NCBI GenBank assembly: GCA_017543595.1
Contig: JAFYFU010000087.1
Coordinates: 1-34,243, forward strand
DNA from: Ruminococcus sp.
Lineage (GTDB): Bacteria; Bacillota; Clostridia; Oscillospirales; Ruminococcaceae
Reading direction: 5' to 3'
DNA length: 34,243 nt
How positions within the stretch are numbered: the stretch's first letter is position 1; the number at the start of each line of letters is the position of its first letter. The notes under the pieces are model-generated. The model was given only the letters and a program-made list of their open reading frames with translations, had not been told where the DNA came from and ran no database searches. Below are positions 1,311 to 34,243 of this stretch, piece by piece. The position numbers and the translations under genes were made by a program.

Positions 1311-1318
1311 CGATACAA

Positions 1319-1684: not shown

Positions 1685-1699
1685 TTTAAAAACCTCCTT

Positions 1700-4538: not shown

Positions 4539-4650
4539 GCACTTCAAAAAATTATTTTTCTGTGTTTGTTCCGTTCTGTATATATATTCGTTTTAACAAA
4601 CACGAAAGGGACAATTTTTTAATTTTTTTTAAATTTTTTTGAACGAGAAA

Positions 4651-4678
4651 CTGCCCCGATTTTTTCAAATCGGGACAG
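4651..4678 (-). terminator. Intrinsic terminator of the 1982-residue gene
   Basis: Minus strand: CTGTCCCGATTT pairs with AAATCGGGGCAG (one G-U), loop of 4 nt, followed by TTTCTCGTTC. The stem is strong and the T-run short. It lies 33 bp after the stop codon and upstream of the next promoter, so it separates the two surface-protein units. Confidence 0.65.
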
Positions 4679-4710
4679 CTTTTAAGGAAAAGATTTATGA
4701 AAATGTAGAT

Positions 4711-7700
4711 TTACTTAACCCATACGCCTGTTAAAATTACTTTTCTCACTTTGTTGTCAACAAGACTGCCCAGTGCGTTTTCCAATGCGCTGAGGTCATC
4801 TGTCGGTTCTGTCTGAGCTTTGAGTAAAACTTCTCCCTTTGAATTTTTAACTTCTTCCCATGTCCAGCCTGCAAAAGAGCCTTCGGGAATGTTTTTAAGG
4901 TCTTCGAGAGAGGGCGTATTTATTATGTCTTCGGTCTTGAAAGTTCTTGTTACTGATTCTTCGGGATATTTAAAAGCAACCTTTATTGTGGAAGTCTTTT
5001 TGAAATATACCTTTATGCTTGTGTTCTTGTGTTCTTCGCTTGCTGTGCAGATAACATCGCCTTCAACTTCCTTGCCGTCAAATTCAACATATTCAAATTC
5101 ATAACCGCTTGCCCTGAGAAGTTCTGCTCTTTCGGGGTCGCTGTAATAGTTTACTGCATCTGCGGTTACTTCTTCGCCGTACTTGAATACGGGTCTCATA
5201 GTTCTGTCGTATTCTTCCTTTTCGTCATCGAATACGTCATTTCTGTAATCGCCGTTTTCGTCCTCAAAGAGATATTCAAGCTTGTATGAAGCATAGTCGG
5301 CTTTTTCTTTCTTTCCTACTATTGAAATATCCATATTTCCGTCAACTATGATATTTTCGCCGTCCTCGCTTTCAAGGCTGTTAAAGTCTGCAACGCAGGG
5401 AACGCAAGTTCCGTCAGGAAGTACGATTATCGCATCTTTGAGTATGTAATGTCCGTAAATATTCTGTGTAAGTTCGTATTTTGAAAGGCGTGAGAATATT
5501 TCCGAGAATGAAAGCATATCACCGCTTGATGCGCTGAATGTAAGGTCGTATGCTGAACCGCTTCCCTTCCAGTCCACAAACTCGCCGTCCTTATAAAGCG
5601 GAATTGAATAGCTGACTTTTATGCTGTTTGTAAATTCTCTGAGTCTTGCGTTGAGAGAAACTGCATTTGTACCCATGTATCTGTTGCTGTCGTCAAATGT
5701 TGATGTCCAGCATATAAATTCACAGTTCTTTGAGCTGAGGTCGGGTATAAATTCCGCAAGGTGTGTGCCGTATGCCATCTGAACTTCAAATATCTTGTCG
5801 CTTCCTGCCTCGCTGTCTATTATGTTGAGGGGATAGAGATTTCTTTCAAGGTAGATATCCATAGCTCCGCTGCCATCGGGGAGGAGCTTTACGGATTCTG
5901 TTGAGAATGCCCTGTTTACCGAGAAACCTTCGGGTATGCTGAGAAGCGGGAGAATATCGTCAAGAGTTACTGTATCCTCTGTATGGAACTGTCTGCCCTT
6001 GCTGTCGGATTCAACATTTTCAAGTGACTTGCAGCCGCTGAAATCTTCGTTCGGGTTGAAATATGCGTTGTCGTTGTAGTATTTTCTGAGAGTTTCAATT
6101 TCTTCCGCAAGAATATATGTACTCTTTCTTTCGGGCTTTGTTGAATCCATTTCCGCATATGCGAACGGGTCGTATTCCGAACCTATGGGCATACGCTGAA
6201 TGTGAACATTTACTTTTGATACCTTGTTGGGAGCAGGTGTCCACTTTGCCGTATATACGATATCTTCCTTGATTTTCGGATATTTTGCGGGGAAATCGAA
6301 CTTGTTGCCGTCCTTGTCGAACCAGCCCTCAAAGATATAGCCTCGTCTTACGGGGTCTTCGGGCCACTTGACTTCATCGCCTGCATTTGCTCTTACACAG
6401 GTTTCGTGAACGTTTTCGCCGACAAAGTAAATTGACGCTGCGTCGTACTGTTCCCAGTGTATTTTGAGAGTACGTGTGAATCTGTTGGAAGCAGCCGTAC
6501 TTCTTCTGTACTTGATGACCATTGTTGTATCTTCTGTTGAATTTTTATTATTTGCAATTGTTACTGTATTTGTGAGGTGGTTGTATGAGAACGCAGGATT
6601 TGAGAATATTACCGTATAAGCGTTTTCAAACTGCTCGTTCAGGAATCCTTCACGGTCCCATATGGAGTTGACAACTTTGTTTATGAATCCCATGTCGCTC
6701 GGTGAATCCGCTGCTGTCATGACATTTACCATTTTGAGTGCGCCTGTTTTCATGTTTATGCGGTTCATATCGTAGATGTCGTTCGGGAGTTTCATGGTTC
6801 TTGTCTTTACCATTTCATATTCAAGGTCTTTTTCGTCCATCGGGACAAATTCATACGGTGTCCATTCTTCTCCCAAATCCCATATCTTAAACTCATCGCT
6901 CCATATCGGCGCAACCAGTATCAGTTTACTGCTGTCAAGGAATTGTGTCGTAAACCGTATGTCCGCACATATTGCAAGTTCCATGTACACAGCACCGCAG
7001 TAGTCCTGTTTAATAGGTTCGCCCGATGTCCATTCAACATGGTAGTAGAAATAGCCCCAGAGCTGATATTTCAGACCTGCATAGAGGTTGAATCCCGCAT
7101 AGAGAAGCTTGTCGGAAAGCACGTTTATTCTGACACAGAAAGTAAATCCTGCCTTTATTCCGAGAGTACCCATTACATAGGCATCAAAGGACATATGTGC
7201 CTTTTCAATGTCGTATGATGCTGCGTTTGCTGTATGTTTGAGGAAGTCAACGCATATATTCCAGCCCTTTGCATAGTTGAACTGGAATGTCATTCCTGCC
7301 GCAACGTACAGACAGCCTTCAACTGAGAAATATATGGGGGCGTGTATGTTTACTATGCCGTAGAAGGAATAGAGGTCTACATCTGCTACCTTTACCTTGC
7401 AGAGTTCAACCCAGCCTGTGCCGTTTGAATCCTTTATCATTTTCTGATATCTCTTTGAGAGGGATTCCATATCGACAACTTTATCCTCGATAACGCCCTT
7501 TGTCTTATCTTTCTTTTCGTCCTTCTTTTCGCTCTTGTCCGCTGTGGGAGCGGCATCGGAATCCTCAGAACCTGCGGGCGGTGCTGCATCGGAATCCTCC
7601 GGCTTGCTTTCGTCCGACTTGTCGTCCGATTTATCATCTGATTTATCGTCTGATTTTTCTTTTGATGAATTTTCCTCATCGGAGGACTGTTTTGCGAGTT

Positions 7701-22308: not shown

Positions 22309-24750
22309 ATGGGAAAACTGCACTATAACAGCAGTATCGACTCCAAATGGCAGAAAATCTGGAAAGATACCGAGCTGTATCATTTTGACGTAAATTCGGA
22401 TAAAAAGAAAATCTATCTCCTTGAAATGTTCTCTTATCCCTCCGCAAGCAAGCTCCATATGGGTCACTGGTGGAATTACAGCCTCCCCGACAGTTGGGGA
22501 CGCATGAAACGTATGCAGGGATTCAATGTCTTTCACCCGATGGGATTCGATGCTTTCGGACTTCCTGCCGAAAACTACGCCATAAAGACAGGTATTCACC
22601 CCAAGGATTCCACAAATGAAAATATCGCAACCATGGAACAGCAACTTGCTTCAATCGGCTGTACCTATGACTGGTCACACGAAATAAAAACCTGCGACCC
22701 CTCTTATTATAAGTGGACACAGTGGCTTTTCATTCAGCTTTACAAGCACGGTCTTGCATACAAGAAAGAGGCTCTTGTAAACTGGTGTCCCAAATGCAAT
22801 ACCGTTCTCGCAAATGAACAGGCTGCGGGCGGTGTCTGCGAAAGATGCGGAAGTACCGTTGAACAGAGAAATATGAGTCAGTGGTTCTTTAAAATCACCG
22901 ACTATGCGGAAGAACTCCTCAGCGGTCACGACAAACTCGACTGGCCCGAACGCACAAAGAGTATTCAGAAAAACTGGATTGGAAGAAGTACGGGTACGGA
23001 AGTTTCTTTCAAGGTGGAAAATTCCGATGAAATTATTTCCGTATTCACAACAAGAGTTGATACCCTTATGGGACTTTCCTATATAGTTCTTGCACCCGAA
23101 TCACCCCTCGCACTTAAACTTACAACTCCCGAACAGAAAGAAGTTGTCGAAAATTACATCAAGGAAGCCATGAAAAAGAACGAAATCGAACGTTCAAGCA
23201 CTTCCGCAGACTACGAAAAAACAGGCGTTTTCACAGGTTCTTATGCTGTTCACCCCCTCACGGGAAAAACCGTTCAGGTATGGATAAGCGATTATGTTAT
23301 CGCAAGCTACGGCACAGGCGCAGTTATGGCTGTTCCCGCACATGATGAGAGAGACTTTGAATTTGCAACAAAATTCAATCTCCCCATTAACAGAGTTATC
23401 ACCGCAAAGGACGGAAATGAAGAACTCCCCTACTGCGAAAAGGGTATACTCATAAACAGCGGAAAATATGACGGCATGGACTTTGAAACTGCTAAGAAAA
23501 CTATGACTGCCGACCTCTCCGCTATGGGTATGGGAAGCGAAAAAGTTACCTACCGTCTGAGAGACTGGTCTGTTTCCCGTCAGAGATACTGGGGCTGTCC
23601 GATTCCCGTTGTTTACTGCGACAAGTGCGGAACTGTCCCCGTTCCCGAAGAACAGCTCCCTGTTGAACTTCCCTATGATGTTGAGTTTATGCCGACAGGC
23701 GAATCACCTCTCAAATCCTGCGAATCATACGTAAATACAACCTGCCCGTGCTGCGGCGGAAAAGCTAAGAGAGAAACAGATACTCTCGATACTTTCGTAT
23801 GCTCCTCATGGTATCAGCTCAGATATCCCGAAAATACAAGAGATGATGTTCCTTTCGGTGAGGATACCGTTAATAAGTTCATGCCCGTTGATAAATATGT
23901 CGGCGGTATCGAACACGCAGCCATGCACCTTCTCTATTGCAGATTTATATACAAGGCTCTCCGTGATATGGGCTATCTCAAAGGCGATGAACCCTATCCG
24001 TCACTCGTTCATCAGGGCGTTATATTCGGACCGGACGGCGCAAGAATGAGCAAATCCCGTGGAAATACAGTCGCTCCCGATGAGTATGTAAGCAAATACG
24101 GCTCAGACGTTTTCCGTACATATCTCGCTTTCGGCTTTGAGTATTCCGCAGGCGGTGCTTGGAAAGACAGCGGTATTGAGGGAATTTCAACCTTTTTCAG
24201 AAGATTTACCCGTATGGTTGAATCATTTATCGAAAATCAGAATGACGGCAAAGATATAATCGTAAATGCCGAGGCTGACAGAATCCGCCACAAAACCATA
24301 AAAGCCGTTACAAACGATGTTGAGAATTTCCACTTCAATACTGCTATTGCAAGACTTATGGAGTTCTGCACGGCTATCATAAAGTATCAGTCCGAATGTG
24401 AGAGAAACTCCGCATTTGAACGCTCTCTCGTTGAGGACTTCATCAAGATGATAGGCATTTTCGCTCCCCATTACGGCGAGGAACTCTGGGAGGCAATCGG
24501 CAACGAATACTCTCTCTTTAATCAGGACTGGTGCGTACTGGACGAATCGAAAACCGTTTCCGACCAGTTTGAACTTGCCGTTCAGGTATGCGGAAAAATC
24601 AAGGATAAAATGATGGCTGCCGCTGACAGCTCAGAAGAAGAAATAAAGGCTGCTGCGCTCTCTCTTGAAAAGGTCAAGGCTTTCATAGGTGACAAGCCCG
24701 TAAGAAAAGTTATTGTTATCAAGAACAGACTTGTAAATATAGTAGTTTGA
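22309..24750 (+). CDS. leuS: Leucyl-tRNA synthetase
   Basis: Charges tRNA(Leu) with leucine. 813 residues, within the bacterial range. The class I HIGH motif is HMGH ([15 protein letters not shown], about 43-57) and the KMSKS motif is RMSKS ([10 protein letters not shown]). A zinc knuckle with CPKC and CERC lies at about residue 160-185. The CP1 editing domain is present, with [18 protein letters not shown] and AHDERDFEF (the conserved editing Asp), so mischarged Ile/norvaline should be cleared. The anticodon-binding helical bundle (about 640-760) and a C-terminal domain are complete. GAGGAAACAAAAATG gives the start. Confidence 0.97.
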
Positions 24751-24765
24751 TTAATAAATTACACA

Positions 24766-24793
24766 AAAAGCCTGAGAAAAATCTCAGGCTTTT
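24766..24793 (+). terminator. Intrinsic terminator of leuS
   Basis: AAAAGCCTGAGA (24766-24777) / TCTCAGGCTTTT (24782-24793), loop of 4 A. The stem matches that of the terminator at 15712-15736. Confidence 0.88.
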
Positions 24794-24808
24794 CTGTAAA
24801 CAAGAGGA

Positions 24809-24884
24809 AATTTGCGCCCTTGTGCCGAAAGTGAACGCAACAAAGTGAAGTGAACGAAGGCACAAGCCCCAAAAGGCGCAAATT
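24809..24884. repeat. Large imperfect inverted repeat upstream of the tyrosine recombinase gene
   Basis: AATTTGCGCC plus CTTGTGCC (24809-24826) are matched by GGCACAAG (24859-24866) and GGCGCAAATT (24875-24884), giving 18 bp of pairing with an 8-nt bulge (CCCCAAAA). The inner 32-nt loop contains two copies of AGTGAACG. There is no T-run on either side, so it is not an ordinary terminator. It may be an RNA structure in the leader of the recombinase gene, a dispersed palindromic repeat, or a recombination site. Confidence 0.6.
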
Positions 24885-24908
24885 GACGGTTTTAAATAAG
24901 GAGAAAAT

Positions 24909-25889
24909 ATGGCTAATTACAATAACTCTGAAAATCCTGAATTTATAAACGAATACCTCGTTCACCTGCGTGTTGTAAAAATGCTGTCCGAACGCACGAT
25001 TCAGGAATATTATTTCGATACAAGGCTTTTCCTGAAATATGTCCTTGCATCTCATACAAATACGGACCTCGACACGGAAGATATGAAAATAACGGATTTT
25101 CCTGCGGAAGAACTTAAAAAAATTTCCGTCACGGATATATATAATTTTATTTTCTATACTTCCGATGAAAGACATAACAAGGACAGGGCAAGATACAGGA
25201 AAATTTCCGCACTTAAAAGTTTTTTTAAATATCTTACAAAAGTCGCTCATCTTATTGATATTGACCCCATGAAAGATATTGAAGTCCCTACCCCTACATC
25301 TTCTATGCCGAAATTTTTGTCACTCAACGAGAGTATGCGCCTGCTTGACGCTGCAAACAACTCTGAATCCGTGAGAAATTACTGCATTTTAACGCTTTTC
25401 CTCAACTGCGGTATGCGTCTTAGCGAATTAATCGGCATTAATGTGAGTGATGTGGATTTCTTTGAAAACCGAATGAGAGTTCTCGGCAAAGGCAGAAAAG
25501 AACGTATGGTCTATCTTAACAATGCCTGCGTTGATTCAATCAACAAATACCTCGCCGTCAGAAACGAAAACCCCAAGGCAAAATCCGAACCCGCACTCTT
25601 TATAAGCAACAGGGGGACAAGAATTTCAAAAAGGCGTGTCCAGCAAATCGTTGAGGAATCCCTGAAACTTGCGGGTCTTGACGGTAAAGGGCTTTCAACC
25701 CACAAACTCCGCCACACGGCGGCTACTCTCATGTATCAGTACGGCGATGCGGACGTTCTCACCCTTAAAGAACTGCTCGGACATTCAAGCACCGCAACCA
25801 CCGAAATATATACTCATCTCAATGATGAGAGAGTCAGAAATGCCGTTGAAAACAATCCGCTTGCCAATATAAACAAGCCGAAAGAATAA
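24909..25889 (+). CDS. Tyrosine recombinase, XerC/XerD type
   Basis: 326 residues. An N-terminal SAM-like DNA-binding domain (about 10-120, RTIQEYYFDTRLFLKY, KISALKSFFKYL) precedes the catalytic domain with the full set of active-site residues: Arg in CGMRLSELIG, Lys in GKGRKER, His-x-x-Arg in STHKLRHTAATL, His in LGHSS and the nucleophile Tyr in TEIYTHL. Size and motifs match XerC/XerD-type enzymes that resolve chromosome dimers; a related integrase role cannot be excluded. No obvious promoter lies between the leuS terminator and this gene, but a large inverted repeat does. GGAGAAAAT precedes the ATG. Confidence 0.88.
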   Translation: MANYNNSENPEFINEYLVHLRVVKMLSERTIQEYYFDTRLFLKYVLASHTNTDLDTEDMKITDFPAEELKKISVTDIYNFIFYTSDERHNKDRARYRKISALKSFFKYLTKVAHLIDIDPMKDIEVPTPTSSMPKFLSLNESMRLLDAANNSESVRNYCILTLFLNCGMRLSELIGINVSDVDFFENRMRVLGKGRKERMVYLNNACVDSINKYLAVRNENPKAKSEPALFISNRGTRISKRRVQQIVEESLKLAGLDGKGLSTHKLRHTAATLMYQYGDADVLTLKELLGHSSTATTEIYTHLNDERVRNAVENNPLANINKPKE

Positions 25890-26189: not shown

Positions 26190-26220
26190 ATATCCGCCCG
26201 ACATTTTATCGGACGGATAT
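26190..26220 (-). terminator. Intrinsic terminator downstream of the catalase fragment
   Basis: Minus strand: ATATCCGTCCGA (26209-26220) pairs with TCGGGCGGATAT (26190-26201), one G-U, followed by ATTTTTTAT. It sits 21 bp after the stop of the cotJC-like fragment and so marks the natural end of that host gene. Confidence 0.82.
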
Positions 26221-26241
26221 TTTATATTTGGAGGGATATTT

Positions 26242-26661
26242 TTATTTTTTTCCACAGCCCTTGTCAAATGCAGGGTTGCAGGCGTAGAAATTCTTTGAAC
26301 TGAGGTTATCCTGTGCTATGCGGAGAGCCTCACCGAATCTCTGATAGTGAACAATTTCCCTTTCACGCAGAAATTTAATCGGGTCTCTTACATCGGGGTC
26401 ATCTGCGAAACGGAGAATATTGTCGTAAGTTGTTCTTGCTTTCTGTTCGGCAGCCATATCTTCATGAATATCTGTTATGACATCGCCCTTTGACTGAAAA
26501 TAAGTCGCCGTCAAAGGCATACCAGATGCCGCAACAGGATAAATTCCCGTTGTGTGGTCAACAAAATATGTGTCAAACCCGCTTTTCTTTATTTCTTCAA
26601 CGGAAAGATTTTTCGTGAGCTGATAGAGTATTGCCGATATCATCTCAAAATGGGCAAGCTC
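26242..26661 (-). pseudogene. cotJC: CotJC-type manganese catalase, C-terminal two thirds; 5' part removed by an insertion
   Basis: The frame gives ELAHFEMISAILYQLT, SGFDTYFVDHT, HEDMAAEQKARTTY, LREREIVHYQRFGEAL and KNFYACNPAFD, the block order of CotJC/manganese catalases (di-Mn H2O2-degrading, coat-associated in spore formers). The Glu and His ligands in E(E)LAH and in REREIVHYQRFGE are visible. The usual protein has about 70-90 more N-terminal residues. Here homology stops at codon 26659-26661; the frame runs on to TAA at 26692-26694 with unrelated residues. The ATG at 26643 is an internal Met with no ribosome site, so this is not a complete gene. The break lies 23 bp from the end of the serine recombinase gene. 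Its own terminator remains downstream. Confidence 0.85.
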
Positions 26662-26683
26662 TACAACACATTGATGATATAAA

Positions 26684-28186
26684 TTAAAGCTTTAAAAAAA
26701 CCTCCAGTGTAAATGGCGTATTGTCCCACTTGGTATGATTTTCTGTATGCCGTGTATAGCGTATTTCTTTCACTGATTTTTTTAAAAGAGTATTTTTTGT
26801 GCTTACATCTGCATCGGGATTTTTCAAAATTTCCAGAACTTCATAAAGCCCCAAAATTTTTTCTTCATAGTCAATCTCAGGCTCTGCTAAAACTCTGGCA
26901 TTTTCAAGGGACTTTTCAAGTTGTTTCTGTTTTTCCTTTAATTTCCCGTTTCTCTGCATGAAAATTTCATTTGTATACACACCCTGCTCCAAAAGGTCAT
27001 AAAGCTTGTCCTGCTGAGATTCAAGCGTTTTCAGTTCGGTTTCGATTTTTTTAACAACATCATTGTAACCAAAATCTTTTTTTGTTTTCACAGATTTGGC
27101 TTTTAATTCTTCAATCACAGTTCCAATCGACTGTATTACAGCATCTTCTACTTCCTTGTAAGTCGCTGACTTATTTCCGCAATGCTGCTGATGAGGACAG
27201 TGCAGTCTCGGTTCAGACTTTCCTTGCGGCTGATAGCTCATAGCTGTACCGCACTCACAGCGGAGAACTCCGGCAAAAGGGTTTACAAGCTTTTTTGTTT
27301 TATGGATTCTCGGGTGATTTTTCGTTTCCGACTGAACTTTGTTAAAAATTTCTTCTGTAATTATCGGTTCATGCTTGCCCTGCGTAAGTGTCCATGTCCC
27401 TTTATCTGACTTCGGGCGACTTGTCACTATTTCGCCATTCTCATATTTTTTTACTGTTTTTCGCCAATTCCAACGGATTTTTCCGATATATACAGGGTTA
27501 TGCAAAATTTCGGTTATGCTTGCAGCAGTCCAGAAATCTTTCTTTCTGGGCGAAAATCCGAGTGAATTAAGTCTTGAAGCAATTGCGCCTGCTCCCATTG
27601 ATTCTCTGGTGCTTAAATCAAAGATAAGTCTGACTACATCTGCCTCCGCAGGATTAATCGCAAGTGTCGGCTTTTTGTCAACCATTACCTTGTCATATCC
27701 GTAAGGCGGCACAGAACCGATAAAATTTCCCTCACTGACAGAAGCAAGTCTCCCTCTGAGCATTATTTCCTTTACGTATTCAAGATAATCATTTCCCCTC
27801 ATAAGTTCCGATTCAAAAAACTTACGGTCAAATTTTTCGGAAAGGTCATATGTTTTCGTGGGTGTTATGATGAGCGTGTTTGTGTAGCGAAAAGCACGGA
27901 TTATTGTGCCGCAGTCGCTTAAATCTCCCCTGCTCAGTCTTTGCGGGTCTACTACAAGCACTCCCTCAACATCTTCCGCCTGTATGCGGTTCAGAACAGC
28001 TTGTATAACAGGTCTGTCTTTGATTGTTTCACCTGAAACGATTTCACGGTATATGCAGTTTTCCTGAATCTCACAGCCGAAATTGCTCTTTGCATAATTT
28101 TGTAGTATTCTTTCGTGTCGTTCAAGTACCTCACTGACGGCTGCGCCTGAATCAACCCTTGATTTCCTGAGATATATAATATACAA
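26684..28186 (-). CDS. Large serine recombinase (site-specific integrase/excisionase)
   Basis: 500 residues from a TTG start at 28186, preceded by AGGAGG at 8 nt. N-terminal resolvase domain (1-150) begins YLRKSR with the catalytic Ser9, and continues with VDPQRLSRG (active-site Arg region). Recombinase domain at about 165-290 (PPYGYDKV, ILHNPVYIGKIRW). Zinc ribbon at about 315-350 (LRCECGTAM ... CPHQQHCGN, Cys/His ligands). A long coiled coil follows (about 385-445, rich in K, E and Q), which in this family controls integration versus excision direction. The C-terminus ends 23 bp from the broken catalase frame, so the attachment site is directly adjacent. No convincing own promoter; the -35 of the sRNA promoter at 28200 overlaps its ribosome-site region. 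Confidence 0.92.
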   Translation of the reverse strand: MYIIYLRKSRVDSGAAVSEVLERHERILQNYAKSNFGCEIQENCIYREIVSGETIKDRPVIQAVLNRIQAEDVEGVLVVDPQRLSRGDLSDCGTIIRAFRYTNTLIITPTKTYDLSEKFDRKFFESELMRGNDYLEYVKEIMLRGRLASVSEGNFIGSVPPYGYDKVMVDKKPTLAINPAEADVVRLIFDLSTRESMGAGAIASRLNSLGFSPRKKDFWTAASITEILHNPVYIGKIRWNWRKTVKKYENGEIVTSRPKSDKGTWTLTQGKHEPIITEEIFNKVQSETKNHPRIHKTKKLVNPFAGVLRCECGTAMSYQPQGKSEPRLHCPHQQHCGNKSATYKEVEDAVIQSIGTVIEELKAKSVKTKKDFGYNDVVKKIETELKTLESQQDKLYDLLEQGVYTNEIFMQRNGKLKEKQKQLEKSLENARVLAEPEIDYEEKILGLYEVLEILKNPDADVSTKNTLLKKSVKEIRYTRHTENHTKWDNTPFTLEVFLKL

Positions 28187-28199
28187 TTTTCATTCCTCC

Positions 28200-28228
28200 T
28201 TGACTTATGAGAATTTCTGTGATATAAT
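28200..28228 (+). promoter_or_regulatory. Promoter P1 of tandem short-RNA unit 1
   Basis: TTGACT (28200-28205), 17-bp spacer, TATAAT (28223-28228). It fires away from the recombinase gene. Confidence 0.82.
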
Positions 28229-28234
28229 GAAAAT

Positions 28235-28346
28235 ATATTCATCATCAATTTTTAAAGCTTTATTCAACAACTGTGGCTTATGAGATGATGAACAAAGAAT
28301 TACCCGAAAACCGCACGTTCTTTCCTTGACTTACGTGCGGTTTTTT
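28235..28346 (+). ncRNA. Predicted short RNA 1 (about 110 nt)
   Basis: Start predicted 7 nt after P1. It ends at a perfect 12-bp terminator, AAAACCGCACGT (28307-28318) / ACGTGCGGTTTT (28333-28344), with a T-run. An internal inverted repeat is TTCATCATC (28249-28257) with GATGATGAA further on. No start codon with a ribosome site leads into an open frame, so it looks non-coding. First of three similar units. Confidence 0.55.
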
Positions 28347-28347
28347 C

Positions 28348-28376
28348 TTGACTTTTGCCCGAATTTGTGATATAAT
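28348..28376 (+). promoter_or_regulatory. Promoter P2 of tandem short-RNA unit 2
   Basis: TTGACT (28348-28353), 17-bp spacer, TATAAT (28371-28376), starting 2 bp after the T-run of unit 1. Confidence 0.82.
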
Positions 28377-28382
28377 GATAAT

Positions 28383-28465
28383 GGAGCTAAGAGAGAGTAA
28401 ACGAGCATAATATGTACTTCCTTTCAAGAAATCCGCCTGATTTTTGCTTTGTCGGGCGGATTTTT
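28383..28465 (+). ncRNA. Predicted short RNA 2 (about 83 nt)
   Basis: It runs from P2 to a terminator AAATCCGCCTGA (28429-28440) / TCGGGCGGATTT (28452-28463) plus T-run. The single-stranded part contains the pyrimidine-rich ACTTCCTTTC (28416-28425), which could pair with ribosome sites. No plausible coding frame. Confidence 0.55.
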
Positions 28466-28467
28466 CC

Positions 28468-28496
28468 TTGACTTTTATTTTATATTTTGATATAAT
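28468..28496 (+). promoter_or_regulatory. Promoter P3 of tandem short-RNA unit 3
   Basis: TTGACT (28468-28473), 17-bp spacer, TATAAT (28491-28496). Shares TTGACTTTT and TGATATAAT with P2. Confidence 0.82.
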
Positions 28497-28502
28497 AATT
28501 TT

Positions 28503-28569
28503 GATAGATGAATCCAATATTTGTATCTCCTGAAATTCCGCCCTGCGCTTATGCGTGGGGCGGTTTTTT
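28503..28569 (+). ncRNA. Predicted short RNA 3 (about 67 nt)
   Basis: It runs from P3 to terminator CCGCCCTGCGC (28538-28548) / GCGTGGGGCGG (28553-28563) with six T. It contains TCTCCT (28526-28531), complementary to an AGGAGA/AGGAGG ribosome site. The 3' part (28517-28571) is repeated at 29454-29507. The hairpin has a T-run only on the plus strand, so it serves this RNA and not the convergent GNAT gene. Confidence 0.55.
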
Positions 28570-28571
28570 AT
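28517..28571 (+). repeat. Hairpin repeat, copy 1 (copy 2 at 29454-29507)
   Basis: About 54 bp with a few changes and one indel: ATATTTGT-TCTCC followed by the same GC-rich hairpin CTGCGCTTATGCGTGGGGCGG split around loop TTAT and six T. Each copy marks the 3' side of a minus-strand cargo gene. Confidence 0.75.
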
Positions 28572-29101
28572 ATTTCAAGATACATTGGAATGCAGCCGTC
28601 TGAAAAATCACTGCTGTGAACACTCTCATTTTCAGTAAAATATTTCATACCCATTTTTTCGTAGAATTTCAGTGTGTTTTGATTTGGCACAGAATGAAGT
28701 ATCAGGTATTCTATATTTATCATGGGTTTTATGCTGTTTTGTATGTAGGCGATAAGCCAACGGAAAGTAAACTCGGAATATTTAAGTTCCGTTCCATTTA
28801 TAACAATATTTTTGTGCTGATATGCCCTGTCAACTCCAAAAAGTTTTAATTCAGCGGCAGGCAGGGCAAATAATCCGTTTTTATTTTTTATTTGTATAGA
28901 AGATGCACAGAAAGAAACAAATGATATTATCTTTTCTGTTTCGTCAGTAAAAATATATGTTGTTGAGTGCATTTTATCAATATGTTTTTTGAACAACATA
29001 TTTATATCATCATTTTTACAATCAAATTCACCCAATCGGAAATAATTGTCTTTTTTATATGAACGCTGATATTTTACAGCGTTAATTTTCTGTTTCGACA
29101 T
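28568..29101 (-). CDS. GNAT-fold acetyltransferase-like protein, possible toxin
   Basis: 177 residues. The N-terminal LGEFDCKNDDINMLFKKH resembles the 'F-x-C-G-x-x-x-L-x-x-F-L' opening of TacT-type GNAT proteins, and the middle AAELKLFGVDRAYQHK plus the end VPNQNTLKFYEKMGMKYF match GNAT motifs. The acetyl-CoA pyrophosphate loop is weak (YQHKNIVING instead of Q-x-x-G-x-G/A), so activity is uncertain. It overlaps the upstream 63-residue gene by 20 bp, an arrangement common for toxin-antitoxin pairs, but the partner is not an obvious RHH antitoxin. Other readings: an acetyltransferase acting on another element-encoded target, or an inactive homologue. It sits in the accessory region next to the recombinase. 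Confidence 0.7.
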   Translation of the reverse strand: MSKQKINAVKYQRSYKKDNYFRLGEFDCKNDDINMLFKKHIDKMHSTTYIFTDETEKIISFVSFCASSIQIKNKNGLFALPAAELKLFGVDRAYQHKNIVINGTELKYSEFTFRWLIAYIQNSIKPMINIEYLILHSVPNQNTLKFYEKMGMKYFTENESVHSSDFSDGCIPMYLEI

Positions 29102-29273
29102 CTATGCTCACTCTCATCATACCATTTTCATCAGGCTTGAAATCAAACCATTCACTTCCGAAAACAGAAGCAAGTTCCTCAGCTATTCCCTCCTGCTCTT
29201 TGCTGTTCTCAAAGAATTTTTCCACGTCTTTTTCCTCTACCACAAAAGGCTTATTTACTTTTATTGCGTACAT
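29082..29273 (-). CDS. Small acidic protein overlapping the GNAT gene (63 aa)
   Basis: 63 residues, starting MYAIKVNKPFVVEEKDVEKF and ending MRVSIDVETEN. AAAGAGGG precedes the ATG by 8 nt. It begins with a beta-strand-like segment, then a Glu-rich helix (EKFFENSKEQEGIAEELAS) and a final strand. No known domain recognised. Because it is first in a two-gene transcript and overlaps the GNAT gene, it may be that protein's antidote or partner. Confidence 0.68.
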   Translation of the reverse strand: MYAIKVNKPFVVEEKDVEKFFENSKEQEGIAEELASVFGSEWFDFKPDENGMMRVSIDVETEN

Positions 29274-29302
29274 AAAAAATACCCTCTTTCTGTTTTTATA
29301 CT

Positions 29303-29331
29303 ATTATACTCATATATCGTGTTTATATCAA
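29303..29331 (-). promoter_or_regulatory. Promoter of the 63-residue/GNAT pair
   Basis: Minus strand: TTGATA (29326-29331), 17-bp spacer, TATAAT (29303-29308). A perfect palindrome ATGAAATTTCAT (29331-29342) abuts the -35 and could be an operator. Confidence 0.78.
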
Positions 29332-29338
29332 TGAAATT

Positions 29339-29470
29339 TCATTCCTCCTTTTTCATTTCATCAATCATAACAACAATTTTGGATCGCTGAACAAGAGAAA
29401 GTCCTTTCATCATATCAGCAATTTCAGTTATTTCAGAATCTGATGATGTACTTATATTTGTTTCTCCTTG
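29339..29470 (-). pseudogene. Remnant of an XRE regulator gene (last 43 codons)
   Basis: The minus strand encodes ISTSSDSEITEIADMMKG, then LSLVQRSKIVVMIDEMKKEE and a stop at 29339-29341, nearly identical to the C-terminus of the intact regulator at 31511-31885. The HTH part is missing; at its 5' side the sequence passes into the hairpin repeat. It lies just upstream of the 63-residue/GNAT transcript, in the same relative place that the intact gene has before the lipoprotein/BRCT-exonuclease transcript. Confidence 0.82.
29345..29470 (-). repeat. Direct repeat of the XRE 3' end, copy 1 (copy 2 at 31517-31642)
   Basis: About 126 bp, only a handful of differences, offset 2172 bp. The two copies bracket the BRCT-exonuclease/lipoprotein module and could recombine to delete it. 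Confidence 0.85.
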
Positions 29471-29507
29471 TAACCGTCCTGCGCTTATGCGTGGGGCGGT
29501 TTTTTAT
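29454..29507 (+). repeat. Hairpin repeat, copy 2 with terminator
   Basis: CCGTCCTGCGC (29474-29484) / GCGTGGGGCGG (29489-29499), loop TTAT, six T on the plus side only. Homologous to 28517-28571, but no plus-strand promoter is visible upstream, so here it may be an orphan terminator. Confidence 0.75.
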
Positions 29508-30706
29508 TCAAAAAAATCTTCTTCCTTTACAATCTCAACAGGTTTTCCTTTTTGCTGAAATTCCATAGCATCACTAACTTTACTGCCATAAGTGCCAAAT
29601 GACCAACTCGCACTTCCTAAAGCACCAACGATTACATAATTTGTTTTTCCCGAAACACCTGTTTTTACGTTTGCACCAAGTTTTTCAAGCTGAGAAGTTA
29701 TATCATCTCTGCTGCCTGCCTTGAAATCACCTGTAAGGACTATGTTTTTTCCTGAAATATCTGAATATGTATCTTTTATTTTTAATGACTGTGATGATGA
29801 ATTTTCGCTATTGTCACTTTCTTTGTAAACTCCATTATATTTTTCTTTGAGTTTTTCATAAACCTTGTAATTCGCAGTACAGTCGTTCAACGCCCTGTGT
29901 GCATGATATTCTATCCCGAAATATTCAGCAATAGTAGCAAGTCTGTAACTGCTTACTTCAATATCACAGTAATGAGAGTATTTCAGCGTATCAATCATAT
30001 CATTTGTGAAACTTCCGATATTCAGCTTTTCACAATATTTTCTGATGATATTGACATCAAAAGCCGATATGTTATGACCGACAACTATATCATTTCCGAT
30101 AAAATCAAGATATTCCTGCAATTTATCTTCAATTTTCGGGGCATTTTCAAGCATTTCATTTGTTATGCCTGTAATGTTTCTTATTTTCAGAGGAACAGGC
30201 TCATCGGGCTTTATAAGGGTATTGTATGTACTGATTATCTGACCGTTTCTTACTTTTACAGCAGCCATTTCTATTATTTCAGAAGAAGATGCATAACGGT
30301 CTGTTGTTTCGAGGTCTATAATGGTATAGTCTTTTATGCTTTTGCGTAAACTTTTACCTTTTGACATTTCTGCACTTCTGTTTCTTTTGAAAGCTCCCAT
30401 TCTTAAAGAACCAAAGAATACAGATTCGTCCATAACAGGAATGTCGGGATTATCTTTAACATATTTCTGCCAGAATGTTTTGTTTGAACTTGGAGGATAT
30501 ACATTATTACTTTTTACAATTTCAAGGTAAGTATCACTCATAACAATAATATCAGGGGTCTGGTTATGACTTACATCATATGAACCGTTTAAATTGACAC
30601 CGCCATTTTCGGAAATAAGTTTATGAAAATCCTGAGCGTTCATGCGTTTCAGCTCACCAACGAGGACGACTTTTCTTCCTTTCAGCACACCTTTATTTTC
30701 ACTCAT
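29504..30706 (-). CDS. BRCT - DEDDh exonuclease - BRCT protein
   Basis: The start is set at ATG 30706, because AAGGAGAG lies 7 nt before it; an earlier frame extension is inside the intercistronic gap. 400 residues with three parts. Residues 1-75 are BRCT-like (LKGRKVVLVGELKRM, DIIVMSD). About 125-290 form a DnaQ-type 3'-5' exonuclease with all acidic ligands: IIDLETTD, GHNISAFDVN and HRALNDCTAN (DEDDh). About 320-400 form a second BRCT (ISGKNIVLTGDFKAGSRDD, KTNYVIVGALGSA), as in DNA ligases. DnaQ-BRCT fusions are known in Firmicutes; two flanking BRCTs are less usual. Predicted to trim DNA or RNA ends at sites recognised by the BRCT domains. Third gene of the XRE-lipoprotein-exonuclease transcript; role in defence or element maintenance is inference. 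Confidence 0.88.
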   Translation of the reverse strand: MSENKGVLKGRKVVLVGELKRMNAQDFHKLISENGGVNLNGSYDVSHNQTPDIIVMSDTYLEIVKSNNVYPPSSNKTFWQKYVKDNPDIPVMDESVFFGSLRMGAFKRNRSAEMSKGKSLRKSIKDYTIIDLETTDRYASSSEIIEMAAVKVRNGQIISTYNTLIKPDEPVPLKIRNITGITNEMLENAPKIEDKLQEYLDFIGNDIVVGHNISAFDVNIIRKYCEKLNIGSFTNDMIDTLKYSHYCDIEVSSYRLATIAEYFGIEYHAHRALNDCTANYKVYEKLKEKYNGVYKESDNSENSSSQSLKIKDTYSDISGKNIVLTGDFKAGSRDDITSQLEKLGANVKTGVSGKTNYVIVGALGSASWSFGTYGSKVSDAMEFQQKGKPVEIVKEEDFFE

Positions 30707-30728
30707 TTTTAAACTCTCCTTATAAGTT

Positions 30729-31508
30729 TTATTCATTGTATGTATAACTGTCAAATTCATTGCCTTCAATGTCAAGATAATGAACTACAAATATAGGATT
30801 TTCTTTACCATCAAAGTGCTGATACAATTCTGATAATTTTTTAAATCCTGCTTCCGCCATAAAATCAAAAGTTTTTTTGTATTCACTAAAATCTGTAATG
30901 TAGAAATAGATTTCGGAGCAATCTTCATTGCGTGTGATATTGGTTATGGTTGTATAATTTTCTGAGGATATGATATTATTAATAGCTTCATCAAAATTAT
31001 TTCTAAGATTTTGCATAATTTCCTCATAAGCTTCGGCAGTCATGATATAAGTCATAGACCCGTCTGCATTTTCCTGAACACTTGTTACACTTTCATCATT
31101 TTCAGCCTCTTTGATTGCTGAATCAATGTTTGAAATCATATTTGACGGAATAGTTATAGTAACATCATCTGGGTTTCTCTGTATCCCTATATCTTCAATA
31201 ACTTCCAATGTATTTTGCTGTTGAGTGTTTGTTTCAGATGAAAGTTCTGTAATCTTTTCCGTTATAGGCTCTGTTTCTGTACTGGCTGTTTCATTCTCTG
31301 TCATTTCAGCGGCAGTTGTGGCTATGGTCGTTGTAATTGTTGTTTCAGCAGCCGTAGTTACTTCTGTTATCGTTATAACTTCGGCAGTTGTTTCGGTTGG
31401 AGCAGTCTTTTCTTCGGTAACGGTTGAAGATGTTGATGTACTCTCTCCGCATGAGACTAAACTTGCTATTAGAGCTGAAACAAGAATAATTGATAAATAT
31501 TTTTTCAT
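30729..31508 (-). CDS. Putative lipoprotein with Thr-rich stalk
   Basis: 259 residues. Signal peptide MKKYLSIILVSALIASLVSC with a lipobox (SLVSC, Cys20) indicates lipid anchoring on the outside of the membrane. A Thr/Glu/Ala-rich linker (about 22-100) is followed by a folded C-terminal domain (about 105-259; VTITIPSNMI, GSMTYIMTAEAYEEIM, EIYFYITDFSEYKKTFDFMAEAGF). Family not recognised. It starts 2 bp after the stop of the XRE gene and ends 22 bp before the BRCT-exonuclease gene, so all three are one transcript: an odd pairing of an exported lipoprotein with a cytoplasmic nuclease. Confidence 0.82.
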   Translation of the reverse strand: MKKYLSIILVSALIASLVSCGESTSTSSTVTEEKTAPTETTAEVITITEVTTAAETTITTTIATTAAEMTENETASTETEPITEKITELSSETNTQQQNTLEVIEDIGIQRNPDDVTITIPSNMISNIDSAIKEAENDESVTSVQENADGSMTYIMTAEAYEEIMQNLRNNFDEAINNIISSENYTTITNITRNEDCSEIYFYITDFSEYKKTFDFMAEAGFKKLSELYQHFDGKENPIFVVHYLDIEGNEFDSYTYNE

Positions 31509-31510
31509 AG

Positions 31511-31885
31511 TTAATTCTCCTTCTTCATTTCATCAATCATAACAACAATTTTGGAACGCTGAACAAGAGAAAGTCCTTTCATCATATCAGCAATTTCAGT
31601 TATTTCAGAATCTGATGATGTACTTATATTTATATCTCCATTGTTATTTACACTGTTATCACCTATTTTAATGCTATTATTCATATTCAATATTGGATTT
31701 TCAGTCCTTCCAAGAAGATAATCAACTGATATATCGAAGTAATCGGCAATTTTTATAAGAGTATCGGCTTTGATATTGCCTTTTTTCCAAGTTGGCAAAT
31801 TTCCGCTACTGCCTGTTATTTGTTTACAGAGGTCCGTTATTGCTATTCCATTTTTAACACAAAGTTCCCGAAGTCTTTCAAACAT
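31511..31885 (-). CDS. XRE-family transcriptional regulator
   Basis: Start at ATG 31885, preceded by AAAGGGGG at about 7 nt; a GTG further upstream in frame overlaps the ribosome site and is rejected. 124 residues. The N-terminal HTH (about 1-62: MFERLRELCVKNGIAITDLC, GNLPTWKKGNIKADTLIKIADYFDISVDYLLG) is a typical XRE/Cro-type fold with the family's 'Y-F-x-I-S-V-D-Y-L-L-G' ending. The C-terminal part has an Asn-rich linker and a helical segment (EIADMMKGLSLVQRSKIVVMID), probably for oligomerisation. First gene of the lipoprotein/exonuclease transcript; likely autoregulates through the palindromes in 31915-32007. Confidence 0.88.
   Translation of the reverse strand: MFERLRELCVKNGIAITDLCKQITGSSGNLPTWKKGNIKADTLIKIADYFDISVDYLLGRTENPILNMNNSIKIGDNSVNNNGDINISTSSDSEITEIADMMKGLSLVQRSKIVVMIDEMKKEN
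31517..31642 (-). repeat. Direct repeat of the XRE 3' end, copy 2 (copy 1 at 29345-29470)
   Basis: Intact copy, part of the XRE reading frame and its stop; see copy 1. Confidence 0.85.
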
Positions 31886-31963
31886 ACTAATACCCCCTTT
31901 TTGTCGAAAAAGCACAAATTCAATTAATAGAATTTGTATGAACTAATAATTTTTCAATATATC

Positions 31964-32014
31964 GAAATTAATTTCAAAAATTCGCTTGACATTTTCAAAA
32001 ACTTGAATTATAAT
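31964..32014 (+). promoter_or_regulatory. Divergent control region: plus promoter with palindromic sites
   Basis: TTGACA (31986-31991), 17-bp spacer, TATAAT (32009-32014) drives the plus strand. TTCAA-AAAC-TTGAA (31994-32007) fills the spacer, and GAAATTAATTTC (31964-31975) is a perfect palindrome on the side of the XRE gene. Such sites fit repressor control of both directions. No clean minus-strand promoter for the XRE gene is seen. Confidence 0.7.
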
Positions 32015-32023
32015 ACAATCATG

Positions 32024-32039
32024 GTAAACCAAAGTAAAC
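32024..32039 (+). promoter_or_regulatory. Putative operator, site 1
   Basis: GTAAACCAAAGTAAAC just after the expected start of the plus transcript; related to the site at 32621-32636 (GTTTACCAAAGTCAAC). The shared core is ACCAAAGT-AAC. Confidence 0.55.
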
Positions 32040-32061
32040 GCATGAAGCAAAGGTTAAAGAT

Positions 32062-32241
32062 ATGAAAGAAAAAATAATAAGGTTTTTGAATGTGTTAGTA
32101 AATATTTTGTGTATTTTGACACTTGCTGTACAAATTACTCAACTCATAACACATAAAGACCTTGCCGCTGATACAATTTATCGCCTTTGGATTGATACAA
32201 CTGTAATAATGCTTTATCTGAAAAGCGATTCTAATTGCTGA
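32062..32241 (+). CDS. Small single-helix membrane protein (59 aa)
   Basis: 59 residues: a short basic start (MKEKIIRF), one hydrophobic helix (LNVLVNILCILTLAVQITQLI, about 9-29) and a polar tail ending LKSDSNC. The ribosome site is AAAGGTTAAAGAT before the ATG. It is driven by the promoter at 31986-32014. Its last 11 bp overlap the 3' end of the convergent gene at 32231. Family not known; the size, single helix and antisense overlap resemble small toxin-like or holin-like membrane peptides, but this is inference. Confidence 0.6.
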   Translation: MKEKIIRFLNVLVNILCILTLAVQITQLITHKDLAADTIYRLWIDTTVIMLYLKSDSNC

Positions 32242-32584
32242 AAAAATCTATTATTGCCTCAATAACATTTTGAACTAATGGAGAGTATTTCTCAGCTATA
32301 CTTGGAAGAGTATTCATATATACTATTACAGCAGTCACTAATGCACACGCTCCTGATATGGTCAGTTCATATTTAAATTCTGGCGCATCTTCGGGCAGTT
32401 CGGCACAAAGAGCATTTAATTTATCTATGACAGAAACAGGCAGTGGTCTGTTATCATCTCTTGCTTTTTCAAGTAACTTTTCAGCACTTAATTGAAGTTC
32501 TTCCCATGTAAAGTTTGATGTTTTGCCCCATGTGAAACCTGAAACATCACCCCATGTCAATCCGCTTGATTTATTTTCTGACAT
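32231..32584 (-). CDS. Element-encoded protein with T-W repeats and one membrane helix (117 aa)
   Basis: Start at ATG 32584, with AAGGAAG about 8 nt upstream; the in-frame GTG at 32593 lies within that site. The N-terminus has three short repeats: SGLTWGD, SGFTWGK and SNFTWEE, about 8-10 residues apart. A helical region follows (about 30-65) and then a hydrophobic helix (LTISGACALVTAVIVYM, about 75-93) and an amphipathic tail (VQNVIEAIIDFFSN). Not recognised as a named family. It is transcribed towards, and overlaps by 11 bp, the small membrane protein gene; both promoters bear the same operator-like sequence. Confidence 0.72.
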   Translation of the reverse strand: MSENKSSGLTWGDVSGFTWGKTSNFTWEELQLSAEKLLEKARDDNRPLPVSVIDKLNALCAELPEDAPEFKYELTISGACALVTAVIVYMNTLPSIAEKYSPLVQNVIEAIIDFFSN

Positions 32585-32606
32585 ATTAATCACTTCCTTT
32601 TATTAT

Positions 32607-32636
32607 ATTATAACATTTGAGTTTACCAAAGTCAAC
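32607..32636 (-). promoter_or_regulatory. Promoter of the T-W repeat protein with operator site 2
   Basis: Minus strand: TTGACT (32630-32635), 17-bp spacer, TATAAT (32607-32612). The site GTTTACCAAAGTCAAC (32621-32636) overlaps the -35, so a bound repressor would block it; it also lies in the promoter region of the divergent regulator gene at 32668. Confidence 0.75.
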
Positions 32637-32667
32637 GATTTTTATAAAATTTGAAAGGAGAATTTGC

Positions 32668-32877
32668 TTGAAATACAATATCAAGGAAATAAGAATGGAC
32701 AGGAAAGTAACTCAGCAGGAGTTAGCTGACAGAATAGGTGTAACAAAAGGGTTTATCTGCCGTGTTGAGACAGGCACAAAACCAATATCGCTTGACCTTG
32801 CCGCAGCAATAGCCGATTATCTGAATGTAAGTCTTGACGAACTCGCAGGACGTAAGCAGGAGCAGGGGAAAGAGTAA
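32668..32877 (+). CDS. Small XRE-family regulator (69 aa)
   Basis: The TTG at 32668 is chosen as start because GAAAGGAG stands 7 nt before it; no ATG with a ribosome site exists until an internal Met. The 69 residues are almost only an HTH: IKEIRMDRKVTQQELADRIG, VTKGFICRVETGTKPISLDL and AAAIADYLNVSLDELAGR, with the XRE pattern of helix 2 'T-Q-Q-E-L-A' and recognition helix 'S-x-I-x-x-x-E-x-G'-like. Probably a Cro-like or early-gene regulator. First of the plus-strand early genes; the operator at 32621-32636 is directly upstream. Confidence 0.88.
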   Translation: MKYNIKEIRMDRKVTQQELADRIGVTKGFICRVETGTKPISLDLAAAIADYLNVSLDELAGRKQEQGKE

Positions 32878-32922
32878 TCATCGCAAAACAAACCGCATAG
32901 AAAGTATAAAGGAGATGATAGT

Positions 32923-33321
32923 ATGTCGTTTGAAGGCTACCTTGAATTTTTGGGTCTTGAAATCGTAGAAGAAGAACCTGCTCCGCCCTGCAAGACTTTA
33001 AAGGAAATTCTTGCAGACGGTGACTGCATTGAGGAACTGCCAAAAGAAGATTATACCGTTAAAAAAGTTGATGAAAATATCAAAAACTTTAAGCAGTACA
33101 GGACAGAGAATGAAATTATCTCTACTTACAACACTCCAAAGGCTAATATTATCGTGCATCAGCCTATTCCCGGAAGCATGGAGTACATCAACGGCAGAAC
33201 GGAATTTATTGAGGGCATGAAACTCTTTTATCAGAATCTTGTCAAAAACGGCTTTAACTGGGATAAAGCCGTCAAACAGGCAAGAGAACACGAAAAATTA
33301 AAGAAATATAAAAGCGTTTGA
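32923..33321 (+). CDS. Hypothetical element protein (132 aa)
   Basis: 132 residues, start ATG 32923 after AAAGGAGATGATAGT. An acidic N-terminal part (LEIVEEEPAPP, KTLKEILADG) and a basic helical C-terminus (FIEGMKLFYQNLVKNGFNWD, KAVKQAREHEKLKKYK). No membrane segment or catalytic motif. Family not recognised. It lies 45 bp after the small XRE gene in what looks like an early operon. Confidence 0.78.
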   Translation: MSFEGYLEFLGLEIVEEEPAPPCKTLKEILADGDCIEELPKEDYTVKKVDENIKNFKQYRTENEIISTYNTPKANIIVHQPIPGSMEYINGRTEFIEGMKLFYQNLVKNGFNWDKAVKQAREHEKLKKYKSV

Positions 33322-33331
33322 GGAAAAAACA

Positions 33332-33541
33332 ATGACTGAAATTATTATAAAAGGCAATGAAAACGATATTTCGCTGATAGTTGAAATGATTAAAAAGACT
33401 TACAATGTTGAACTGACAGATACCTGTCTGAAAATACTTTCAGGCAAAGAACAAGGCGAAATCGTCAGCGAGCTGATGAGCAGCGTTGATGTTCTTAAAA
33501 ATCTCATGAACAAAAAGGAGCAGAACCATGACAAAACGTGA
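33332..33541 (+). CDS. Hypothetical small element protein (69 aa)
   Basis: 69 residues, start ATG 33332 after GAGGAAAAAAC. MTEIIIKGNENDISLIVEMI suggests a beta strand followed by helices; no recognised domain. It overlaps the next gene by 14 bp, consistent with translational coupling. Confidence 0.72.
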   Translation: MTEIIIKGNENDISLIVEMIKKTYNVELTDTCLKILSGKEQGEIVSELMSSVDVLKNLMNKKEQNHDKT

Positions 33542-33737
33542 ACTCGCCATAATAATGGCATATACGGACGTTACAACGCTTACAGGTGACGACTTAAAAT
33601 ATTTTTATGAGTATGTGTCGGAGGTTGTAGGCAGGGAAATTTATACACATGAAATAGCAAAAGCTGTCAGTCTTTACAAGAATACGATTATCAAAAACGA
33701 TTTTGCCGCCCTCTGTCAGTCTGCAACCAATGACTGA
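33528..33737 (+). CDS. Phage/ICE-type small protein (69 aa)
   Basis: 69 residues, start ATG 33528 after AAGGAGCAGAACC. The beginning MTKRELAIIMAYTDVTTLTG and the block FYEYVSEVVGREIYTHEIA resemble a small uncharacterised protein seen often in Firmicutes prophages and conjugative elements (from memory, of the DUF7736 kind). Function unknown. Confidence 0.75.
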   Translation: MTKRELAIIMAYTDVTTLTGDDLKYFYEYVSEVVGREIYTHEIAKAVSLYKNTIIKNDFAALCQSATND

Positions 33738-33757
33738 GGAAGCAAGGAGATGATTAA

Positions 33758-33967
33758 ATGGAAAAGAAACGTGAATTTATAGAAGCTTTGGGGGATATTC
33801 TGCGTGAATATTCCCGTGAGAACGTCAATTATATCAGCTATGCAACAGTAAACGGTCAGGAGTATGCTCAGATTGTTTACATGAACGGTTACAGGAAACA
33901 GGTCAATATCACAGGAGATAGCTGTGCGGCGGTTCTTCACGATATTTACCGTGTTTTAGTGCGATAA
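33758..33967 (+). CDS. Hypothetical small element protein (69 aa)
   Basis: 69 residues, start ATG 33758 after AAGGAGATGATTAA. Helical N-terminus (MEKKREFIEALGDILREYSR) followed by a strand-rich part (YISYATVNGQEYAQIVYMNG, KQVNITGD). Not recognised. Spaced 20 bp from the preceding gene, same operon. Confidence 0.72.
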   Translation: MEKKREFIEALGDILREYSRENVNYISYATVNGQEYAQIVYMNGYRKQVNITGDSCAAVLHDIYRVLVR

Positions 33968-33981
33968 TACGGAGTGCTGAT

Positions 33982-34146
33982 ATGAAAGCATACACCAATT
34001 CTGACCTGCTGAAAGCTATGTACATAGTTGATAAGCTGTATGATATTGCAGGGATTTATATTTCAGCAACGGATATCATTGAGAAGTGCGAAAATGAACA
34101 GGAGCTTGACTTCCGGTATTATCCTCTTTGCTATAACAAATGGTAA
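33982..34146 (+). CDS. Hypothetical small element protein (54 aa)
   Basis: 54 residues beginning MKAYTNSDLLKAMYIVDKLY and ending RYYPLCYNKW. A ribosome-site-like GGAGTGCTGAT precedes the ATG, and it follows the previous stop by 14 bp. Codon use and spacing fit the surrounding operon; family unknown. Confidence 0.62.
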   Translation: MKAYTNSDLLKAMYIVDKLYDIAGIYISATDIIEKCENEQELDFRYYPLCYNKW

Positions 34147-34223
34147 GCGATTCGGCGGTTCGCTATAAAAAAGTACCGCTGCCATGCCCGAAAGGGCTGA
34201 ATATAATTGAAAGGAGAAAATCT

Positions 34224-34243
34224 ATGCTTACAGTTAAAAAGCC
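34224..34243 (+). CDS. Start of a further element gene (cut by window end)
   Basis: GAAAGGAGAAAATCT followed by ATG and an open frame (MLTVKK) to the last base. The strong ribosome site supports a real start; the product cannot be identified. The stretch 34147-34210 before it holds no gene that I can support. Confidence 0.55.

Follow-up and report, generated by a model that had tools for sequence, protein, structure and literature searches.

The cotJC piece in the window and the codon-65 cut

The 34,243-nucleotide stretch analysed here (the window) carries on its minus strand the 3' piece (26242..26661) of cotJC, a manganese catalase gene, covering codons 65-203 and the stop (26244-26242), and recognised by a match to PF05067 (profile 66-197) and by the fit of its register with a second piece on another contig, C53. 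The original prediction held that this catalase frame has neither a start codon nor a ribosome site, and this was borne out: the frame opens at E65 (GAG, 26661-26659), reading V-E-L-A-H-F-E-M, and its earliest in-frame ATG (26643) lies within conserved catalase sequence. The piece is 88% identical to the contiguous piece of a relative, genome G028, and a hairpin-like inverted repeat, noted by eye, lies past its stop at about 26190-26225. The adjoining chromosomal flank holds leuS and a XerC-like gene (22309..25889, plus strand), a pair also found in G028 and in Ruminococcus sp. UBA4383; in G028 it lies beside the 3' piece in the other orientation, with cotJB and cotJA in between.

A complete serine recombinase gene on the same strand, with its 3' end adjoining the break, had also been predicted, and is indeed present. 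This large serine recombinase, RecB (500 aa, TTG start; 26684..28186, minus strand), ends 22 bp from the break (26662-26683), its Resolvase, Recombinase and zinc-ribbon domains (PF00239, PF07508, PF13408) all score above the Pfam cut-off, and it shows 97% identity in viral contig L183 and 91% identity in UBA4383. The 22 bp (26662..26683, minus strand) form the phage arm of a hybrid attachment site, attR, within TATATCATCAATGTGTTGTA, and occur in the joined attP of L183. The dinucleotide GA (26660..26661, minus strand), which is found in register on both sides of the cut, is the presumed core from the register and the comparison with attP, and a shared core of only 2 bp at this cut (cut B) is weak by itself. 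The expected direct repeat matching 26655-26675 was not found and a long repeat there was rejected, as the in-register identity between the two sides of the cut consists of GA.

The element that begins at the break, prophage B, runs off the contig, with its recombinase end at 26662..34243 and its far end outside the window, at C53:1-2075. The IMG/VR contigs L183 and L194 have both ends of the element, that of the window and that of C53, joined at attP, with arms equal to those of the genome's own attR and attL; this joined form comes from metagenomes and not from the strain studied here. Prophage cargo in the window includes an exonuclease and BRCT protein (29504..30775, minus strand) and a phage-type Cro/C1 repressor (31511..31915, minus strand), both assigned from Pfam and PHROGs. 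Three of the five prophage proteins scanned matched PHROGs (these two and an endolysin on C53), and the other two had no match. Judged from its sequence, the codon-65 element is a temperate prophage with RecB as its integrase. UBA4383 (L167) has the same layout as the window, RecB - cotJC(64-204) - XerC - leuS, and the RecB relatives with more than 45% identity (own genome, G030, G013 and G035) adjoin a codon-65 cut.

The gene start and the codon-30 cut

A PF05067 profile search of the own genome, whose assembly is 93% complete in 127 contigs, returned exactly three pieces of cotJC, matching profile positions 1-33, 29-69 and 66-197 and jointly covering 1-197; no intact cotJC was found by this search of the 93% complete genome. 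Codons 1-31 lie at C97:10993-10901 (profile match C97:10895-10993), directly after CotJB (PF12652 match), beside which is a gene that we take to be cotJA. Codons 30-65 lie at C53:2182-2076 (profile match C53:2066-2185). When the sides of each cut were aligned in register, they shared GGCGG at codon 30 and GA at codon 65, the frame was kept at both, and closing both cuts would give a normal CotJC read-through. The 5' half of the catalase, whose absence from the genome would have spoken against an interrupted gene, thus exists, as two pieces on C53 and C97. The proposal of a gene cut by an integrated element with a serine recombinase holds as far as the in-frame cut with RecB goes, but excision of the window element alone would restore only codons 30-203 and not a full frame, since the start of the gene is set apart by another cut, at codon 30, which has a recombinase of its own. 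Because the 5' half of cotJC is itself split, we rejected a single prophage as the entire cause. Between the two roles suggested for the gene, in oxidative stress or in the spore coat, the latter is likelier than a vegetative oxidative-stress role because codons 1-31 follow CotJB; CotJC is presumably a spore-coat protein. Excision of the window element may act as a developmental switch.

The second serine recombinase, RecA (C97 9494-10885), is encoded on the strand opposite to the adjoining cotJC(1-31). Its Resolvase and Recombinase domains exceed the Pfam cut-off, and its zinc ribbon scores 24.3 bits, just below the cut-off of 25.3. The gene order on C97 is HTH - ImmA - cotJA/cotJB - cotJC(1-31) - RecA - sbcD - sbcC, and that on contig C10 of G028 is HTH - ImmA - RecS1 - cotJC(4-31) - RecA (71% identical) - sbcD - sbcC, with about 75 kb from RecA to the contig end on the sbcD side. 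On C53 and on contig C9 of G028, the piece starting at codon 30 is preceded by FtsH - HTH - GH44. These matching orders indicate that the two genomes share both chromosomal neighbourhoods in which the halves on either side of the codon-30 cut (cut A) are placed. On neither flank of cut A in the own genome was a discrete foreign element or phage seen, the genes there including sbcCD, plsY, FtsH and GH44, and cut A in this genome does not look like a plain prophage insertion. On both sides of the cut, in the own genome and in G028, lie inverted half-site arms, GG[AT]TATGAT.

To quantify selection on the pieces, we compared the own genome with G028. The three cotJC pieces (25, 33 and 132 codons) had dN/dS values of 0.025, 0 and 0.063, at dS values of 1.74, 0.92 and 1.02, which are near saturation. 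The corresponding dN/dS values for other genes were 0.058 (leuS), 0.070 (GH44), 0.161 (sbcD) and 0.175 (RecA), so that RecA evolves faster than leuS and about like sbcD. The cotJC pieces are under purifying selection, and nonfunctional halves would not be expected to remain so constrained.

Across 60 genomes, the own included, all seven RecA homologues with E < 1e-100, RecA itself among them, adjoin a cotJC piece cut at codon 30. Discrete elements of 2.6-6.2 kb occupy codon 30 in five relatives (G416, G058, G470, G007 and G436). A look at nine viral relatives of RecA, at 36-47% identity, turned up no joined attP close to RecA. In four of the nine (L198-L201, at 39-42% identity), inverted arms surround GGTCCTCC or GACCGCC close behind the recombinase, in an attP-like layout, and this GACCGCC-type core is the complement of cotJC codons 30-32 as they read in some hosts; in the other five no codon-30-32-like core was found, L204 excepted. 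At 4733-4900 of L204 (IMGVR_UViG_3300006145_000404) lie a RecA-like gene, an attP-like inverted repeat, a cotJC fragment from codon 30 and a second copy of the core; part of cotJC was apparently picked up by this element.

Some further features of these contigs were noted in passing. A second RecA-like gene of the own genome, on contig C42, proved to lie not in cotJC but behind a cut recombinase gene: positions 1-1692 (L075) hold a RecA-like serine recombinase directly after the cut 5' part of a serine-recombinase-like frame, and the layout upstream resembles by eye that of the window's element. Repeated modules, also seen by eye, lie upstream of the recombinase at 28190-28560 and 29470-29500 of the window and at 1690-2180 of L075; they consist of a -35/-10-like pair and a G+C-rich hairpin, and are perhaps small RNAs or tandem promoters. 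A RAMP-superfamily (type III CRISPR-like) gene is found near the cotJ locus of C97 (L005 15754-17655).

Split cotJC among relatives and the precision of the cuts

PF05067 matches were found in 49 of 60 genomes (the own and 59 relatives). Among the 35 relatives of the same genus, 10 were intact (counting G015, which also holds a decayed copy with the codon-6 arm, and G025 and G033, each with an extra partial match at a contig end), 18 had a copy counted as split, in some cases from a single piece (e.g. G011), and 7 had no match. An intact paralogue accompanies the split copy in two of the 18, G002 and G030, and two of the seven without a match (G012 and G017) retain cotJB together with a stub of the 5' end, cut at codon 6. 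In a family sample, from which G220 was left out as ambiguous when breaks were surveyed, 59 of 79 genomes, the own included, had matches, and the own and 19 others had a copy broken at a recurrent codon, six of these 19 beside an intact copy. The cuts fall at six sites across relatives, at about codons 6, 30, 62, 65, 135 and 175, and, where flanking sequence was read, most have a recombinase at the cut.

One piece cut at both ends occurs in 15 genomes (own, G002, G007, G013, G018, G019, G022, G028, G034, G035, G047, G058, G079, G436 and G473), a count that leaves out G006, whose piece stops at a contig end. All three pieces lie on a single contig in G058. A single 3.6-Mb contig of G034 carries the middle piece and both stubs, the 5' one with cotJB, all co-oriented and separated by gaps of 15.7 and about 160 kb; the codon-175 stub of G034 has the same neighbourhood as that of G019, and this cut may therefore also be old. 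Of 21 cases with consecutive pieces on one contig, 19 show them co-oriented and in order; the other two, G478 and G433, are inverted, and cotJB of G028 faces the 3' piece. The two codon-30 pieces of G478 (L234, contig C83, 4788-5345 and 15172-15267) are oppositely oriented, so that inversion, not excision, would join them. Decayed split copies were found in G442 and G015, each beside an intact copy; that of G442 (L238, contig C19, 3083-3596) has stop codons. In L240 (G334 C1:368001-383000), four stretches like one serine recombinase stand in tandem ahead of the codon-135 cut (4-7956).

Where both sides of a junction were available, all 43 pairs measured at the six sites (22, 9 and 12 in three rounds) meet at the same codon with no base gained or lost. 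The G442 pair is counted among these register-keeping pairs and has stop codons downstream, and the G478 pair stands outside the 43, its anchor being on the wrong piece. All 43 share at least two bases at the join, the shortest of these cores being weak by identity alone. Of the two arms of the codon-6 cut, the left, TGTTGTACA, is found unchanged in 8 of 9 genomes, or 10 of 11 with G012 and G017, and the right, TGTACAACA, in 6 of 11; viral contigs L207-L209, with related integrases, have a joined site with the codon-6 arms, with one changed base in L208 and L209. Relatives of RecB and RecS1 occur in viral contigs with joined attP; for RecS5, none of 12 candidate stretches in viral contigs was confirmed. 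A preference of the cuts for the most conserved DNA of the gene was rejected, the six sites having conservation percentiles, computed among 12 intact copies, of 0.97, 0.06, 0.71, 0.90, 0.57 and 0.81.

Contig ends within 300 bp on the element side were seen at 10 of 91 edges, compared to 1.1 expected, in 64 chosen loci (in two of the ten the contig end itself truncates the piece, and G416, G442 and the cotJB-side edges were left out). This fits a mixture of joined and split DNA, but also mixtures of strains.

The own genome has SpoIVA, which is present in 57 of the 60 genomes, a SigE-like gene (347.6 bits, just below the cut-off of 348.6) and a SigK-like gene (279 bits against a cut-off of 298.65). 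Sigma-E promoter patterns upstream of 30 recombinases, some with unchecked start codons, numbered 2, 2 and 1 from the loosest pattern on, compared to 1.1, 0.3 and 0.2 expected, and were not clearly enriched. Two relatives have a SigK-like gene in two co-oriented pieces in a skin-like arrangement, about 8.4 kb apart in G013 (C13:257478-257837 and 266272-266628) and about 5.5 kb apart in G015 (C60:28898-29257 and 23063-23416). The portion of a C. difficile study that concerns this gene (PMC11222575) refers to a role of CotJC in the spore coat, to a cotJC-like gene adjacent to the prophage deleted in that work, and to earlier cotJC-type mutants with less catalase and no significant coat defect.

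Probable rejoining of the pieces, its alternatives and known systems

Our analysis favours the view of cotJC as a sporulation gene split in three, probably rebuilt by recombination, most likely in the sporulating mother cell. Cut B holds a temperate prophage with RecB, and cut A, marked by RecA, separates two chromosomal neighbourhoods. During sporulation, RecA, RecB and putative directionality factors would recombine attL with attR at each cut, joining the pieces by excision, or by inversion where the pieces face each other, and so making cotJABC a continuous operon again for the assembly of the coat. The forespore would keep its germ-line copy split, and the spore would inherit the split gene. 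We infer in this way the rebuilding of cotJC by recombination, its timing and cell type, and the continued activity of cut A. A further proposal, which we advance tentatively and with considerable doubt, is that the pieces lie at separate loci, tens to about 160 kb apart with normal chromosomal genes in the gaps, and are joined by chromosome-scale recombination in the mother cell; this cell is terminal, and the intervening chromosome could be lost or inverted at little cost. The arrangements of the own genome and G028 at cut A, and of G034 with its gaps of 15.7 and about 160 kb, fit such a chromosome-scale assembly of pieces.

Phages and small elements could instead use cotJC as an attB and nothing more, with the gene lost wherever they insert and no regulated rebuilding. 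That several recombinase groups target the gene, that viral contigs with joined attP contain relatives of RecB and RecS1, and that split copies have decayed in G442 and G015 would all be explained in this way, and hot spots for large serine recombinases are known in other genes (PMC10083194, seen in part). We nevertheless consider such an integration hot spot unlikely, as the frame was kept at all 43 measured junctions, the cut-A arrangement is common to the own genome and G028 at dS 0.9-1.7 with strongly constrained pieces, and both decayed copies sit in genomes with an intact copy. The gene might also be restored stochastically, without developmental control: elements would excise spontaneously, or phages be induced, in a small number of vegetative cells, and these cells alone, now with an intact gene, would sporulate well. 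Permanent loss of elements would fix intact alleles, yet 18 of 35 same-genus relatives were counted as split, and no phage was seen on either flank of cut A in the own genome. We find this explanation improbable, even though it is in keeping with the joined attP forms in metagenomes, with the unclear sigma-E signature upstream of the 30 recombinases, and with the clustering of contig ends at cuts (10 of 91 edges against 1.1 expected), which strain mixtures would produce likewise.

It is hardly credible that the pieces were mis-joined or came from different strains through an error of assembly or binning. The own assembly, in 127 contigs, does place the three pieces on three contigs with no physical link; however, G028 independently has the same two neighbourhoods, L183 and L194 link the C53 end to the window end, and all three pieces lie on one contig in G058 and on one 3.6-Mb contig in G034.

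The reading of cotJC as a rebuilt sporulation gene has parallels in known systems. As general background, the skin element cuts a mother-cell sporulation gene, sigK, in frame, with a serine recombinase at its edge, and cotJC is similar in these respects; unlike skin, the target is cotJC, and up to two cuts at once and six points across relatives are apparent from the compared sequences. Three traits of the sporulation gene-intervening elements skin, spsM, vfbin, gin and yin were found here: a sporulation gene as the target, a serine recombinase at the edge, and a matching core and frame. The developmental rearrangements named in the part of PMC10747680 consulted are those of sigK (skin, in B. 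subtilis and C. difficile), spsM, spoVFB, gerE and yabG. Cut B resembles SP-beta, a temperate prophage that splits the spore-envelope gene spsM (PMC4191935, in part), but only one of the two cotJC cuts is a prophage. The 2.6-6.2 kb codon-30 elements of relatives are like gin in gerE of B. cereus ATCC10987, described in the portion seen as a non-phage intervening element in a small sporulation gene, with serine recombinases (PMC5595907); gin is a single cut, and cut A in the own genome is flanked by chromosomal genes. In yabG of C. botulinum, the prophage-like yin, with a detected circular form, likewise lies within a sporulation gene and is called unique by its authors in the excerpt of PMC10747680, while the cotJC cuts recur widely. 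Diverse large serine recombinases can converge on one conserved gene, as in a prolyl-isomerase example with one site (PMC10083194, in part), and cotJC similarly receives many integrases in one gene but differs in having six sites, often two of them occupied. Among the papers listed by searches of the open-licence PMC literature, none dealt with a split cotJC in its title or the start of its abstract. The gene cotJC, the multiple sites, the double cuts and the apparent drift of halves into separate chromosomal neighbourhoods are new in comparison with these systems.

Several groups of recombinases cut this gene for a coat enzyme, at six codons that recur in a rumen genus and beyond. Its pieces are easily mistaken for pseudogenes or missed, an error that would distort sporulation predictions based on genomes from gut and rumen, and the set offers matched pairs of recombinases and attachment sites for direct tests. 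If the pieces are rejoined, terminal differentiation would shelter the gene while many elements use it as a landing site, and its halves could drift to distant chromosomal neighbourhoods yet stay under selection.
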